A DNA stretch of 42,680 nucleotides, from the NCBI RefSeq assembly GCF_018613155.1, contig NZ_JAGGQU010000018.1:96462-139141 (forward strand). The letters run 5' to 3'. Below the pieces are notes generated by a model. It made no database searches, had not been told where the DNA came from, and saw nothing but the letters and a program-made list of their open reading frames with translations. The stretch's first letter is position 1; the number at the start of each line of letters is the position of its first letter. A program made the position numbers and the translations under genes. This document shows, one piece after another, positions 5,402 through 16,726 of the stretch. This DNA is from Bacillus sp. ISL-55. Its GTDB lineage: Bacteria > Bacillota > Bacilli > Bacillales > Cytobacillaceae.

Positions 5402-7114
5402 ATGCAGCATTGGTCCATTGGCAGAAAGTATGCAACCGTTTTCGCGTTTATAATGGTTATTTTTCTAGGTAGCTTCATTTATTTGACGACTGTTTTATCT
5501 AACCTGCAGAATGCAATCAACCTTGCCGAGGAAAAAAGTGATTATGCGATTATGATAAGTGAAATGGGATCTTCTTTCCGCCAGAAATATATTATTATTA
5601 CAGACTACATAACTGAACCAAAACCGGAGCTGCTTACGGCGTATGAAAAAGAGGCTGAGCAATTTAGTGCTTCATCAAAAAAGCTGCAAAAATATGTGAA
5701 ATCAAAAGAGGCAAAAACTTTACTTAATGCGATTATGAAAATAGACCAGCATATGGATAAAGTGTGGGAAGAAGATATCTTGATGACTGTCTCAGAATTC
5801 CAACAGAACTTTGAACAGGTTGATATTTATACCCAGATCAGCTTGACGAACAAAGCAGAAACCATTCGTGATATGAACATCGAAAAGTTAAGTGCCATCA
5901 GGCTAACGATCCTTGATGACAGAACAAAAATCATGAAGGAAACCTATACTTCGATAGCTTCGATGATCAGAAACACTTTTATCCTTATCATATTTGCATT
6001 CATTATTTCATCTGTATCCATGTACTTTGTGTCACGCAACATCAGCAAGAACCTCAAAAATGTGGTCGCTTATTGCAAAAGACTCGCTAATGGTGAATTA
6101 AATGTTAAAGCATTGGAAGCAAAGAGTAAGGATGAAGTTGGACAAATTATCATTGCCATGAACCAGCTATCAGGAAACCTGAAAACTTCCATTTCAAACA
6201 TCCTGTCCTCGTCCGACCAGGTAACTGAGATGTCCCGGAACCTAAAACTTAATGCAGAAGCTACAACTGAGGCCAACAATGAAATTACAACATCGATCAT
6301 GCAGGTGGCATCTTCATCTGACGAACAAGTCAAAATCTCAGAACGAACAAATGAAGCGGTAGAAAATGTCTCTTCACAATTAATCGAAGTTACCGGATCC
6401 TTAAAAGAGACGCTTTATACAACCTCTAGCACAAAGGATAAAATCGAAGAAGGCAAACAGTATGCGTTTAACGTGACTGAACAAATGGATCAGATCAATG
6501 GCAAAGTATCCGAGTTAGCGAATGTGATCCACTCTTTGAAAAACAATTCTCAGGAAATCCATAGAATTATTGAAATCATTACTGAAATTTCAAATCAAAC
6601 TAATTTACTGGCTTTGAATGCAGCAATTGAAGCAGCCAGGGCCGGTGAGCACGGAAAAGGGTTTGGTGTCGTCGCGCAGGAGGTTCGCAAACTCGCTGAA
6701 CAGTCAGCTGGTGCAGCAGACAGTATCCGCACCATCCTTGAGCAGACTGGCAAAGAAACAAACCAGGCTGTAAGCGTCATGGATGAAAGCCAGGCAACCG
6801 TACTAAAAGGCAATGAGCTTGTGGAGAAAGTAGCCACAATTTTCGCAGAGATCGCCGAATCAATTGAGGAAGTAAGCCTAAAGGGCAACACGGTAAGCCA
6901 TGCAGTCATCAATGCTAATGAAAAGATGGAATCCATGGCACAATCTGCTAATGAAGTGATTACCGCATCCTCAAGATCCGCGCTATTCCTCGAGCAGGTA
7001 GCAGCAACAACAGAAGAACAGAATGCAACGATGCAGGAGCTTTTGGAATCATCCAGCAAGCTGTCAAGCATGGCCGAAGACCTGAGAAAGTCATTCTCCA
7101 GTTTTAAGTTATAG
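5402..7114 (+). CDS. Methyl-accepting chemotaxis protein
   Basis: The 570-residue protein has a transmembrane helix at about residues 10-32, a mostly helical extracytoplasmic region (33-189), a second membrane helix at about 190-210, a HAMP domain (about 211-264) and a long cytoplasmic signalling coiled coil. The conserved hairpin tip, reading NQTNLLALNAAIEAARAGE and continuing into GKGFGVVAQEVRKLAEQS, lies at about 395-435. This tip binds CheA and CheW. The small sensor region resembles a four-helix bundle, but no ligand can be inferred. The ATG at 5402 follows GGGGGA. The gene converges with cheW, and both carry sigma-D-type promoters, which supports co-regulation with motility. Confidence 0.95.
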   Translation: MQHWSIGRKYATVFAFIMVIFLGSFIYLTTVLSNLQNAINLAEEKSDYAIMISEMGSSFRQKYIIITDYITEPKPELLTAYEKEAEQFSASSKKLQKYVKSKEAKTLLNAIMKIDQHMDKVWEEDILMTVSEFQQNFEQVDIYTQISLTNKAETIRDMNIEKLSAIRLTILDDRTKIMKETYTSIASMIRNTFILIIFAFIISSVSMYFVSRNISKNLKNVVAYCKRLANGELNVKALEAKSKDEVGQIIIAMNQLSGNLKTSISNILSSSDQVTEMSRNLKLNAEATTEANNEITTSIMQVASSSDEQVKISERTNEAVENVSSQLIEVTGSLKETLYTTSSTKDKIEEGKQYAFNVTEQMDQINGKVSELANVIHSLKNNSQEIHRIIEIITEISNQTNLLALNAAIEAARAGEHGKGFGVVAQEVRKLAEQSAGAADSIRTILEQTGKETNQAVSVMDESQATVLKGNELVEKVATIFAEIAESIEEVSLKGNTVSHAVINANEKMESMAQSANEVITASSRSALFLEQVAATTEEQNATMQELLESSSKLSSMAEDLRKSFSSFKL

Positions 7115-7173: not shown

Positions 7174-7656
7174 CTAGTTATGCAGCTCTTGCTTTTGGTT
7201 TTGCATATAATCCTTTATTTCTTTGATGCCTTCAAGGGATTGGATCAATGTTTCAGGGTCGATCAACATGATCATCCGTTTATCAAAATTAGCTACACCC
7301 GTAATGAAGCTTGTCTTCTGATATGCGAGAAGGCCCGGCTGTTTTAGATTCTCAGCCGGAATTTCAAGGATTTCCTTCGCATCCCTTACAAGGACGCCGA
7401 TTGAAATTTCGGCTGTCTCTATCACAATCAGCCTGGTTTTGTCTTCAACTTGAATATCCCGGTTGTACAGCACCTTTTCCAGGTCAATGACCGGAATCAA
7501 CTCTCCCCTTACTTTTGTGATTCCTGTTACATAATCAGGCATATGCGGGATTGCTGTCATTCCTTCCATTTTTTCAATAGAAACGACATAAAGAATCGGA
7601 AATGCATATTCTTCATTCCCTGCTTCGAAGACTACAGTCTTATTGCTCTCAGCCAT
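7174..7656 (-). CDS. cheW: CheW-type chemotaxis adaptor
   Basis: The product, 160 residues from the chosen start, is a single CheW domain. It includes YVVSIEKMEGMTAIPHMPDYVTGITKVRGELIPVIDL and a later GVLVRDAKEILEIP, the two linked SH3-like beta barrels of the family. It couples chemoreceptors to the CheA kinase. No receiver domain is attached, so it is CheW rather than CheV. The ATG at 7656 is preferred, with an AAGGGTG box about nine bases upstream; the in-frame GTG at 7668 overlaps that box. A near-perfect sigma-D promoter lies upstream at 7759-7785. This may be an accessory copy paired with the convergent receptor, since main che operons lie elsewhere in Bacillaceae. Confidence 0.92.
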   Translation of the reverse strand: MAESNKTVVFEAGNEEYAFPILYVVSIEKMEGMTAIPHMPDYVTGITKVRGELIPVIDLEKVLYNRDIQVEDKTRLIVIETAEISIGVLVRDAKEILEIPAENLKQPGLLAYQKTSFITGVANFDKRMIMLIDPETLIQSLEGIKEIKDYMQNQKQELHN

Positions 7657-7758
7657 GTGAGTCCACACCCTTTTAAAATTTTTCTATCACTCTATGTATG
7701 TAGATTAAATGGTTCGCTGATGAATGATGTAGTTGGTATACAAGCCATTCTAAGTATT

Positions 7759-7785
7759 ATATCGGTTTCAACAAGTCCAACTTTA
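7759..7785 (-). promoter_or_regulatory. Sigma-D-type promoter of cheW
   Basis: On the minus strand TAAA is followed after exactly 15 bases by ACCGATAT. This matches the sigma-D consensus -10 GCCGATAT at seven of eight positions. It lies about 100 bases before the cheW start and about 30 bases from the edge of the 52-bp repeat array. Confidence 0.82.
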
Positions 7786-7814: not shown

Positions 7815-8349
7815 GGACATTTTGATTTCGTGTATCTTCCAAAATGTCTATTAAAGCATCTTTATTGGACATTTTGATGGCTCATTCTTTTCAAAATGTC
7901 TATGAAACCACGTTTTTTGGACATTTCGGTGGCTCACTCTTCTCAAAATGTCTATTAAAACCTGTTTCTTGGACATTTCGAGGCCTTTCTCTTCCCAAAA
8001 TGTCTATTAAAACCTGTTTCTTGGACATTTCACGGCCTTCCTCTTCCCGAAATGTCTATTAAAACCTGTTTATTGGACATTTCGAGAGCTCACTCTTCTT
8101 AAAATGTCTATTAAACCACGTTTATTGGACATTTCGAGGGATCACTCTTTTCAAAATGTCTATTAAACCCTGTTTTTTGGACATTTCGAGGGATCACTCT
8201 TTTCAAAATGTCTATTAAACCACGTTTATTGGACATTTCCAGGAGTCACCCTTTTCAAAATGTCTATTAAACCCTGTTCATTGGACATTTTGAGGGCTCA
8301 TACTTTGGGAAATGTCTATAATCCCTCTTCTCTTGGACATAGACATAGT
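7815..8349. repeat. Tandem array of ten 52-bp dyad-containing units
   Basis: GGACATT recurs at 7815, 7867, 7919, 7971, 8023, 8075, 8127, 8179, 8231 and 8283, always exactly 52 bases apart, with a degenerate eleventh start at 8335. Each unit holds GGACATTT, a variable 16-18 base stretch (often CGAGGGATCACTCTTTTC), then AAATGTCTATTAAACC and GTTTATT leading into the next GGACATTT. Across the unit junction AAATGTCTATTAAAC faces GTTTATTGGACATTT as an imperfect 15-bp dyad with a three-base centre. Units 7 and 8 are nearly identical; the outer units are the most diverged. There is no indel in ten units. The array fills the gap between the cheW promoter and the PepT-like gene. Short ORFs through it shift frame every unit and are not credible genes. 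Confidence 0.97.
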
Positions 8350-8366
8350 GCATATTCCAATAAACA

Positions 8367-8392
8367 AAGGGCTCCCTGACAAGGAAGCCCTT
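8367..8392 (-). terminator. Terminator of the mce-yqjD-pepT-like operon
   Basis: On the minus strand a stem (AAGGGCTTCC / GGGAGCCCTT with one wobble) is followed by TGTTTATT. It lies a few bases after the stop of the PepT-like peptidase and just outside the tandem array. Confidence 0.8.
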
Positions 8393-8398
8393 CAATTC

Positions 8399-9520
8399 TT
8401 ATTGTGCTGCTACTTCTTCAATTAATGCGATGACCATCTCGGCAAGCTTATTGAGCTCTTCGATAGGCATTCTTTCGTTTGTAGTGTGGATTTCTTCATA
8501 CCCTACAGCAAGGTTGACGGTTGGGATGCCGAAGCCTGCAATGACATTTGCGTCGCTTCCGCCGCCACTGTGCAGCAATTCTGAGCTTCTGCCGATTTTT
8601 GCGGCTGCTTTTTTAGCAAGTTCAACGACCAGATCACCTTCACCGAATTTGAAGCCTGGGTACATTACCTGGACATCGACATCTGCCTTTCCGCCCATTT
8701 CCTGTGCAGCTGATTCGAATGCTTCTTTCATTTTTGCTACTTGCGCTTCCATCTTTTCAGGGATAAGAGAACGCGCTTCTGCAAGGATCTCTACATGGTC
8801 GCAGACGATATTTGTCTGTGTACCACCCTGAAAACGGCCGATATTCGCAGTAGTTTCTTCATCAATGCGGCCAAGCGGCATTCTTGCAACAGCCTTGGCA
8901 GCAATCGTGATTGCGGAAACACCTTTTTCTGGAGCAACACCTGCGTGAGCAGTTTTACCATGGATGACGGCTGCAACTTTTGCTTGCGTTGGCGCTGCAA
9001 CAATAATATTTCCAACCTTGCCATCACTGTCAAGTGCATAACCATATTTCGCTTTTACTAAAGAAGAATCCAATGCTTTTGCGCCAACGAGACCTGATTC
9101 TTCTCCGACAGTAATGATGAATTGGATCGTTCCATGCGGAATTGATTGTTCCTTCAGGACGCGAATTGTCTCAAGCATGACCGCTAGTCCAGTCTTATCA
9201 TCAGCTCCAAGGATTGTCGTTCCATCAGTCACGACATACCCATCCTTAATCGATGGCTTAACTCCCTTGGCAGGAATGACAGTATCCATATGAGAAGTAA
9301 AGTAGATTGTATCTACACCTTCTTTTGTACCTTGCAAAGTACAGATCAGGTTTCCTGCTCCATGACCAGTTTGTGCAGTTGTATCGTCCTCGAAAACCTC
9401 TACTCCCAGGTCCTCGAATTTTTTCTTCAAGACGCGTGCAATTTCAGTTTCATACTTTGTTTCAGAGTCAATTTGGACAAGCTCTAAAAACTCATTCAAT
9501 AAACGTTCGTTATTAATCAT
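8399..9520 (-). CDS. M20-family peptidase, PepT-like (YqjE)
   Basis: The 373-residue protein is a di-zinc aminopeptidase of the M20/PepT-like group and corresponds to B. subtilis YqjE. Metal and catalytic residues are visible in order: SHMDTV (His and Asp), GADDKTG (bridging Asp), GEESGLVG (catalytic Glu and metal Glu), LDSDG (Asp) and EIHTTNE (last His). A dimerisation domain with GKTAHAGVAPEKG lies in the middle. It probably trims small peptides in the cytosol. The ATG at 9520 follows GGAGGT. It lies 74 bases downstream of yqjD with no terminator between, so it is likely co-transcribed with yqjD and mce, as in B. subtilis. Confidence 0.92.
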   Translation of the reverse strand: MINNERLLNEFLELVQIDSETKYETEIARVLKKKFEDLGVEVFEDDTTAQTGHGAGNLICTLQGTKEGVDTIYFTSHMDTVIPAKGVKPSIKDGYVVTDGTTILGADDKTGLAVMLETIRVLKEQSIPHGTIQFIITVGEESGLVGAKALDSSLVKAKYGYALDSDGKVGNIIVAAPTQAKVAAVIHGKTAHAGVAPEKGVSAITIAAKAVARMPLGRIDEETTANIGRFQGGTQTNIVCDHVEILAEARSLIPEKMEAQVAKMKEAFESAAQEMGGKADVDVQVMYPGFKFGEGDLVVELAKKAAAKIGRSSELLHSGGGSDANVIAGFGIPTVNLAVGYEEIHTTNERMPIEELNKLAEMVIALIEEVAAQ

Positions 9521-16617: not shown

Positions 16618-16693
16618 AGTATGTTTAACTCTTATGGATTCCGGGAAAGTTAACAATACAGCTAGATCCATACCCCTAAACTCCCTAGATGAA

Positions 16694-16726
16694 GGACAAC
16701 GGACATTCCGTTGTCCGCTTTTTTTT
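16694..16726 (+). terminator. Strong orphan intrinsic terminator on the plus strand
   Basis: A perfect 10-bp stem (GGACAACGGA / TCCGTTGTCC) with a CAT loop is followed by GC and eight Ts on the plus strand. On the minus strand no T-run follows. No plus-strand gene precedes it: upstream on that strand is only the brxB promoter region. It may end a small RNA starting between about 16600 and 16680, but no convincing promoter or ribosome binding site could be placed there. Confidence 0.85.

Follow-up and report, generated by a model that had tools for sequence, protein, structure and literature searches.

The array described here lies in a stretch of 42,680 nucleotides from Bacillus sp. ISL-55 (the window, meaning the whole stretch analyzed), a genome that probably belongs to the genus Mesobacillus. 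It occupies the intergenic region between genes encoding an M20-family peptidase and a CheW-domain protein. The features in and around it are as follows:

5402..7114, plus strand: methyl-accepting chemotaxis protein gene (PF00015), convergent with cheW
7174..7668, minus strand: CheW-domain protein gene (PF01584, E 1.6e-33)
7759..7785, minus strand: sigma-D-like promoter of the CheW gene, TAAA-N15-ACCGATAT, immediately downstream of the array as read on the minus strand
7815..8334, no strand assigned: array of 52-bp units, ten units with 20 alternating half-sites, and a partial eleventh, GGACAT, at 8335-8340
7816..8290, plus strand: GACATTT cores, n = 10, at 7816 + 52k, all exact
7842..8316, minus strand: AAATGTC cores (GACATTT on the minus strand), n = 10, at 7842 + 52k, all exact, each 26 bp past a plus-strand core
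8365..8394, minus strand: terminator-like stem-loop belonging to the M20 peptidase gene and separating it from the array
8399..9520, minus strand: M20-family peptidase gene (PF01546, PF07687), upstream of the array as read on that strand

On the minus strand, the M20 peptidase gene is thus followed by the terminator-like stem, the array, the sigma-D-like box and the CheW gene, in that order. Two terminator-like sites were found between 7600 and 8500, where 0.6 would be expected. The first-pass annotation had placed a sigma-D promoter directly beside the array; a box resembling one is present at 7759-7785, named from what we take to be the sigma-D consensus, and its TATATCGG part is found in 14 of 15 orthologous loci (G007 lacks the exact string), but a stricter sigma-D pattern does not match it. 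In an Rfam search of the window, the array itself matches no known RNA family. The only match to reach its gathering threshold is sbrA (RF01489, a Listeria sRNA) at 16656-16723 on the plus strand (60.9 bits versus 45); the genome carrying it is Mesobacillus-type.

Copies of GGACATTT start at 7815 + 52k (k = 0-9) with zero indels, the eleventh start being shortened to GGACAT, and TRF reports a period of 52 with 9.6 copies, 84% matches and 0% indels. The earlier description of ten units of exactly 52 bp, each holding a GACATTT ... AAATGTC dyad, is borne out. The true step of the array is 26 bp, with the cores on alternating strands and all 20 exact.

A BLAST search of the window genome with its own array yielded 36 matches in approximately 18 separate places on 15 contigs. 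These adjoin unrelated genes, and the tie to the cheW promoter that had been proposed at first is therefore incidental: the window array is a member of a dispersed family, not a single-locus curiosity. Matches occur in 20 of 61 genomes (60 relatives and the window genome), 19 of them, the window genome included, in the same genus. A pattern that leaves the gap on each side of the core free (12-26) finds 130 matches in the window genome and none in a reversed control; among the matches listed, the gap lengths are almost all 19/19. With this pattern, arrays are present in 18 of 21 genomes of the genus (again none in the reversed control) and, family-wide, in 33 of 193 genomes and six of 25 genera. 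Within a draw of 299 genomes from the class, four match, three of them from the window's genus and one with a lone match; the reversed control also gives one match there, in G498. A scan of named genomes with the exact 26-bp pattern finds at least 115 stretches, 80 of them listed. The genera among the matches listed are Mesobacillus, Ureibacillus, Pallidibacillus, Metabacillus, Robertmurraya, Cytobacillus, Heyndrickxia, Lentibacillus and unclassified Bacillus. In the open-licence literature, judged by title or by the start of the abstract and also searched by the letters GGACATTT, no description is recognizable as this family.

The invariant part of the family is the 7-bp GACATTT core, which recurs on alternating strands every 26 bp. 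Between arrays, identity is 99% in the core versus 29% in the inner spacer (60 genus arrays, orthologues included). Inside arrays, mean unit identity is 82% (151 arrays), with the spacers homogenized per array, so that each array carries its own homogenized spacer on a common scaffold. Neighboring opposite cores are spaced by exactly 26 bp in 411 of 429 cases at 42 loci, and in 1264 of 1306 across 159 parsed arrays, a set that includes loci picked by the exact pattern. The count is 1081 of 1150 half-steps in a set of 112 arrays whose choice, except for L225, took no account of spacing; L225 was picked by the exact pattern too, and the loci of the exact-26 scan (at least 115 stretches, 80 listed) are left out. 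The chaining rule behind the 159- and 112-array counts accepts steps of 24-28 only, a bound that the free-gap pattern does not share. The 69 half-steps of the 1150 that are off by one or two are spread over 48 of the 112 arrays and are mostly uncompensated by the following step, which implies that a strict helical phase is unnecessary unit by unit.

Orthologues of the cheW locus allow the same features to be followed at one place. Across consensus units from 14 species joined by a minimum spanning tree, there are 0 core versus 114 non-core substitutions. The modal step is 26 in all 14 anchored arrays, and 124 of 131 individual steps are 26. The flanking DNA has 26 indels per 228 substitutions, a rate that would predict roughly 13 changes in array length (a rough figure, since it rests on the minimum spanning tree), and none is seen in the modal step. 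Of the 21 genus genomes, 15 were given for this comparison and 14 could be anchored; the six left out are G002, G008, G010 and G012, which have no array there, and G004 and G005, in whose stretches no peptidase gene was found. Copy number at the locus varies between species from 4 to 20 half-sites while the step stays at 26, and the drift in unit length that the first-pass annotation named as a sign of a neutral minisatellite is not seen, either here or in the half-steps of the 112 arrays. Its view of an ordered array is thereby supported, and the conservation of core and step makes a neutral minisatellite unlikely.

Some arrays record how their units have been copied. At the cheW locus of G007 (L054), two unit types alternate with a period of 104 bp, and in another array of that genome (G007:C2:109303-109907) unit types recur in mixed order; both arrangements are as expected of recent tandem duplication of unit groups. 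In G012, which has no pattern match, a coding region that by eye resembles an insertion sequence lies beside cheW (L068), where most members of the genus have an array.

The arms that flank the core are less uniform. In the window's genus, the two half-sites differ and read TTTAAT.GACATTT...AAATGTC.AAGAAA on the leading strand. The first half-site is plus in 66 of 81 arrays and the last is minus in 67 of 81, as whole inverted pairs; about half of the last right arms have the symmetrical form.ATTAAA, which is rare inside arrays. A compensatory change suggested for the eighth pair of the inner dyad is not upheld. In the window, units 1 and 2 have T-A and unit 5 has C-G, and units 3, 4 and 6-9, six of the ten, have a C.A mismatch, with T.G in unit 10; Watson-Crick pairs are found there in 14 of 60 genus arrays, versus 30 expected. 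The same arrays show Watson-Crick pairs to be rarer than chance at three positions, 7/25 (14 versus 30 expected), 33/-1 (18 versus 30) and 35/-3 (6 versus 29), and these anti-palindromic positions make the unit polar. Among arrays with other arm types, the arms do match each other, in 288 of 434 pairs versus 194 by between-array shuffling (z 9.4; 62 of 118 arrays), a shuffle that ignores relatedness and a set in which a few of the 62 arrays come from the window's genus and most from other genera. In each of two genomes, G077 and G080, arrays that share core and step fall into two arm classes, a coexistence that is hard to square with a single protein reading the arms. The core and the step are general; palindromic arms differ from class to class, and it is in the window's genus that the polar form is seen.

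This polarity can be compared with replication in six complete genomes, taking dnaA as the origin and a single dif match as the terminus. The 43 arrays compared are those listed from these genomes, one search having supplied at most ten scored candidates per genome, and are not all of the arrays present. The arms point with replication in 39 of the 43 and against it in two, and are neutral in two; of the independent loci, 17 of 19 agree (p = 7e-4). Independent loci are arrays grouped by clustering of the flanking proteins; grouping by k-mers or blastn had merged unrelated loci (into five groups with blastn), probably via array-to-array matches, and was replaced. Agreement holds at all four convergent loci and at both divergent loci. 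The spacers are polar as well: their leading strand has a purine excess in 39 of the 43 arrays and at 17 of the 19 loci, the excess failing at L251/L271 and L262. On the arm-defined leading strand, spacer GC skew and AT skew are both 0.37, versus 0.06 and 0.04 in noncoding flanks, and ordinary strand composition is therefore no explanation. A replication-aligned direction is well supported for the window's genus. In G077 and G080, the + strand purine fraction of 19 arrays ranges from 0.36 to 0.69, with no consistent purine excess; the direction of replication was not located in these two.

Transcription and replication mostly run together: both flanking genes are on the leading strand at 12 of the 19 loci, one of these loci being tied between two gene contexts. 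Where the flanking genes are co-directional, arm polarity matches theirs in 52 of 55 arrays, a count in which orthologues recur and from which 20 arrays of unclear polarity are left out. At the hit-serC locus (L008 in the window genome and L080 in G007), arms and genes point in opposite directions. All six complete genomes have hit on the lagging strand, so that by orthology the arms at hit-serC would follow replication, although none of the six has an array at that place. At one head-on locus (L269 and L274; by eye, beside a gene for a 3-hydroxyacyl-CoA dehydrogenase-like protein), the arms run with the genes and against replication; a weak disagreement with replication is also seen at L262. 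The purine skew of the L269/L274 spacers still follows replication (0.81 and 0.80), opposite to the arms, so one signal can be uncoupled from the other. L101 has a similar spacer, pyrimidine-rich in arm orientation.

The explanation favored here, to which we would give somewhat less than an even chance, is that these are selected, replication-oriented DNA-binding arrays for a putative factor, with a role linked to replication or to the organization of the chromosome. The family would then consist of dispersed arrays of cis-acting DNA sites under purifying selection. Each site would comprise the GACATTT core with its short arms; sites would alternate between strands 26 bp apart, a pair spanning 52 bp or about five helical turns, and a putative oligomeric DNA-binding protein could fill them in a regular row. 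The unlike arms and purine-rich spacers would make the array directional, mostly along replication. A bound array is proposed to act in chromosome upkeep, whether by delimiting nucleoid domains, by orienting forks or translocases, or by insulating intergenic DNA. Selection on the core and step, with selection inferred as the cause, is the best-supported part of this reading.

Several candidate partners were considered and rejected. A Y1 transposase (PF01797, matches to which do not separate RAYTs from other Y1 transposases) is encoded in 15 of the 18 carriers of the genus but is absent from G006, G014 and G015, and is present in all three of the non-matching genomes G008, G010 and G012. The RTP fork-trap protein (PF02334) is over cut-off in none of 11 carriers among 20 genomes searched. 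The one genome of the 20 with a match over cut-off is G120, which has no array match; carriers G006 and G089 have matches below cut-off, and B. subtilis, the control for this search, matches PF02334. The octamer GAGAAGGG, which we take to be the SpoIIIE recognition sequence (SRS), occurs once forward and never in reverse in 23,712 bases of units. AGCGG, presumably the Bacillus Chi site, occurs 25 times forward and six times in reverse, a bias that may only reflect the purine skew.

Known repeat systems resemble the arrays in part. KOPS/SpoIIIE recognition sequences, Chi and Ter-RTP are polar, replication-aligned, short single sites; the arrays are likewise polar and aligned with replication but are long. 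MIRU-VNTR loci of mycobacteria consist of direct repeats of one sequence in units of about 50-100 bp. The arrays here are similarly tandem, at many fixed intergenic loci and variable in copy number, but share only core, arms and step, with spacers unrelated between arrays. Palindromic repeats with regular spacers are also a feature of CRISPR, but the array spacers are alike within an array (mean unit identity 0.82) and unlike between arrays, which is the opposite of CRISPR. BOX elements of Streptococcus pneumoniae, according to the accessible part of PMC3049150, are interspersed; their central modules stand in tandem in varying number, and their ends are inverted. The arrays share these traits, inverted ends included; by eye, however, they have no end modules like boxA or boxC, and orientation with replication is not described for BOX in that part of PMC3049150. 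For the stem-loop families of PMC2267715, the Bacillus species clustered are, in the portion available, Bacillus anthracis, B. halodurans and B. subtilis, and the motif of the triplex repeats in the corresponding portion of PMC4666352 differs from the array motif.

REPs, as presented in the available part of PMC3733652, are dispersed and intergenic, alternate in orientation within clusters, lie mainly beside co-directional or convergent genes, and are tagged by GTAG and CGTC. The arrays are also extragenic and alternating, and their neighbors are mostly co-directional or convergent: of 128 classified arrays, 75 lie between co-directional, 37 between convergent and 14 between divergent genes, with two within an ORF (ORF calls were mechanical, and the divergent neighbor of L263 is probably spurious). 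However, a position table of 83 polar arrays shows, by eye, no conserved GTAG/CGTC foot, and the arrays differ from REP/BIME in having a single 26-bp step, array-specific spacers, no tracking with Y1 and a mostly replication-oriented direction. REP/BIME and BOX elements are the nearest known kinds, to the extent that the accessible parts of these sources describe them.

It may be asked whether the family is a REP/BIME- or MITE-like selfish repeat, which is the strongest of the alternatives but still rather unlikely. A polar inverted element would once have spread via the single-stranded lagging-strand template, which would orient it with replication, and would then have expanded in tandem at loci now fixed. 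The dispersed, intergenic, alternating inverted units and their gene context fit such an origin, as do the whole inverted pairs (66 of 81 starting plus, 67 of 81 ending minus), the patchy presence across family members (33 of 193 genomes) and the Y1 transposase match in 15 of the 18 genus carriers. However, PF01797 is absent from three carriers and present in three genomes without a pattern match, no exact pairs of cores up to 60 bp apart are found outside arrays in 212,630 bases around them, and core and step are kept at orthologous loci, which is unexpected of dead repeats. Zero matches were obtained in the plasmids and phages searched for the pattern, which also counts against such a repeat; of two viral contigs that carry it, one is chance-like and the other Mesobacillus-like.

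A transcribed ladder of RNA hairpins (a 3' UTR stabilizer, an attenuator or a stand-alone RNA), with replication alignment following from genes co-oriented with replication, is less probable again. Compared with 50 mononucleotide shuffles, both strands of the window array do fold much better (z -12.3 and -9.5), as would suit the hairpins that the first-pass annotation had raised. The fit of polarity to co-directional genes (52 of 55 arrays), the arms of L269/L274 that follow genes and not replication, and the arm pairing in other arm types (62 arrays; 288 of 434 versus 194, z 9.4) also speak for such a ladder. However, positions 33/-1, 35/-3 and 7/25 pair below chance in the genus, divergent loci follow replication, and so does hit-serC if orthology holds. 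In the window, moreover, the array comes after a terminator-like stem and ahead of a promoter. Among arrays that lie behind a co-oriented gene, 16 of 66 have a terminator-like site before the array, versus 0.4 by shuffling, and none was seen in the other 50, a count that comes from a crude script with 16 arrays set aside.

The spacers alone could be read as a one-way Rho insulator, an idea that seems a little more doubtful still. The head-on strand is pyrimidine-/C-rich; Rho would stop antisense or head-on transcripts on it and let those in the leading direction pass. In leading-strand reading, G exceeds C in 77 of 83 polar arrays, and spacer skew follows replication even where arms do not (0.81 and 0.80). 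These features fit the targets of B. subtilis Rho, which, in the accessible part of PMC13323073, terminates C- and T-rich, mostly antisense, sequences; the same part, however, assigns the purine bias to genes and not to replication direction. An insulator would account for the skew and leave the invariant core, the 26-bp step and the arms unexplained, and the other genus examined has no consistent purine excess (the 19 arrays of G077 and G080). A neutral minisatellite expanded by unequal crossover, finally, would suit the variable copy number (4 to 20 half-sites at the cheW locus), the within-array homogenization (82% mean unit identity), the alternating unit types at the G007 cheW locus and the single-unit indels that occur, but is very improbable, since one core and one step recur at numerous unrelated loci and in several genera, on unrelated spacers, and since the cheW locus shows 0 core versus 114 other substitutions with unchanged modal length.

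A more specific form of the DNA-binding reading is possible but doubtful. The arrays would be chromosome-wide polar markers of replication direction on both Mesobacillus replichores, read by a putative lineage-specific protein in a 26-bp ladder, and relatives elsewhere in the Bacillales would keep the core and step with palindromic arms swapped as coevolving pairs. Interspersed bacterial repeat families are often dismissed as selfish debris. Here, the core, the step and, in one genus, the direction are held while the spacers change, over approximately 19 independent loci in six complete genomes. The arrays thus offer a natural quantitative test for function in an intergenic repeat family, and labeled array DNA could serve as a probe for protein. 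If the alignment with replication is functional, a long polar array would join the few known short replication-oriented signals.
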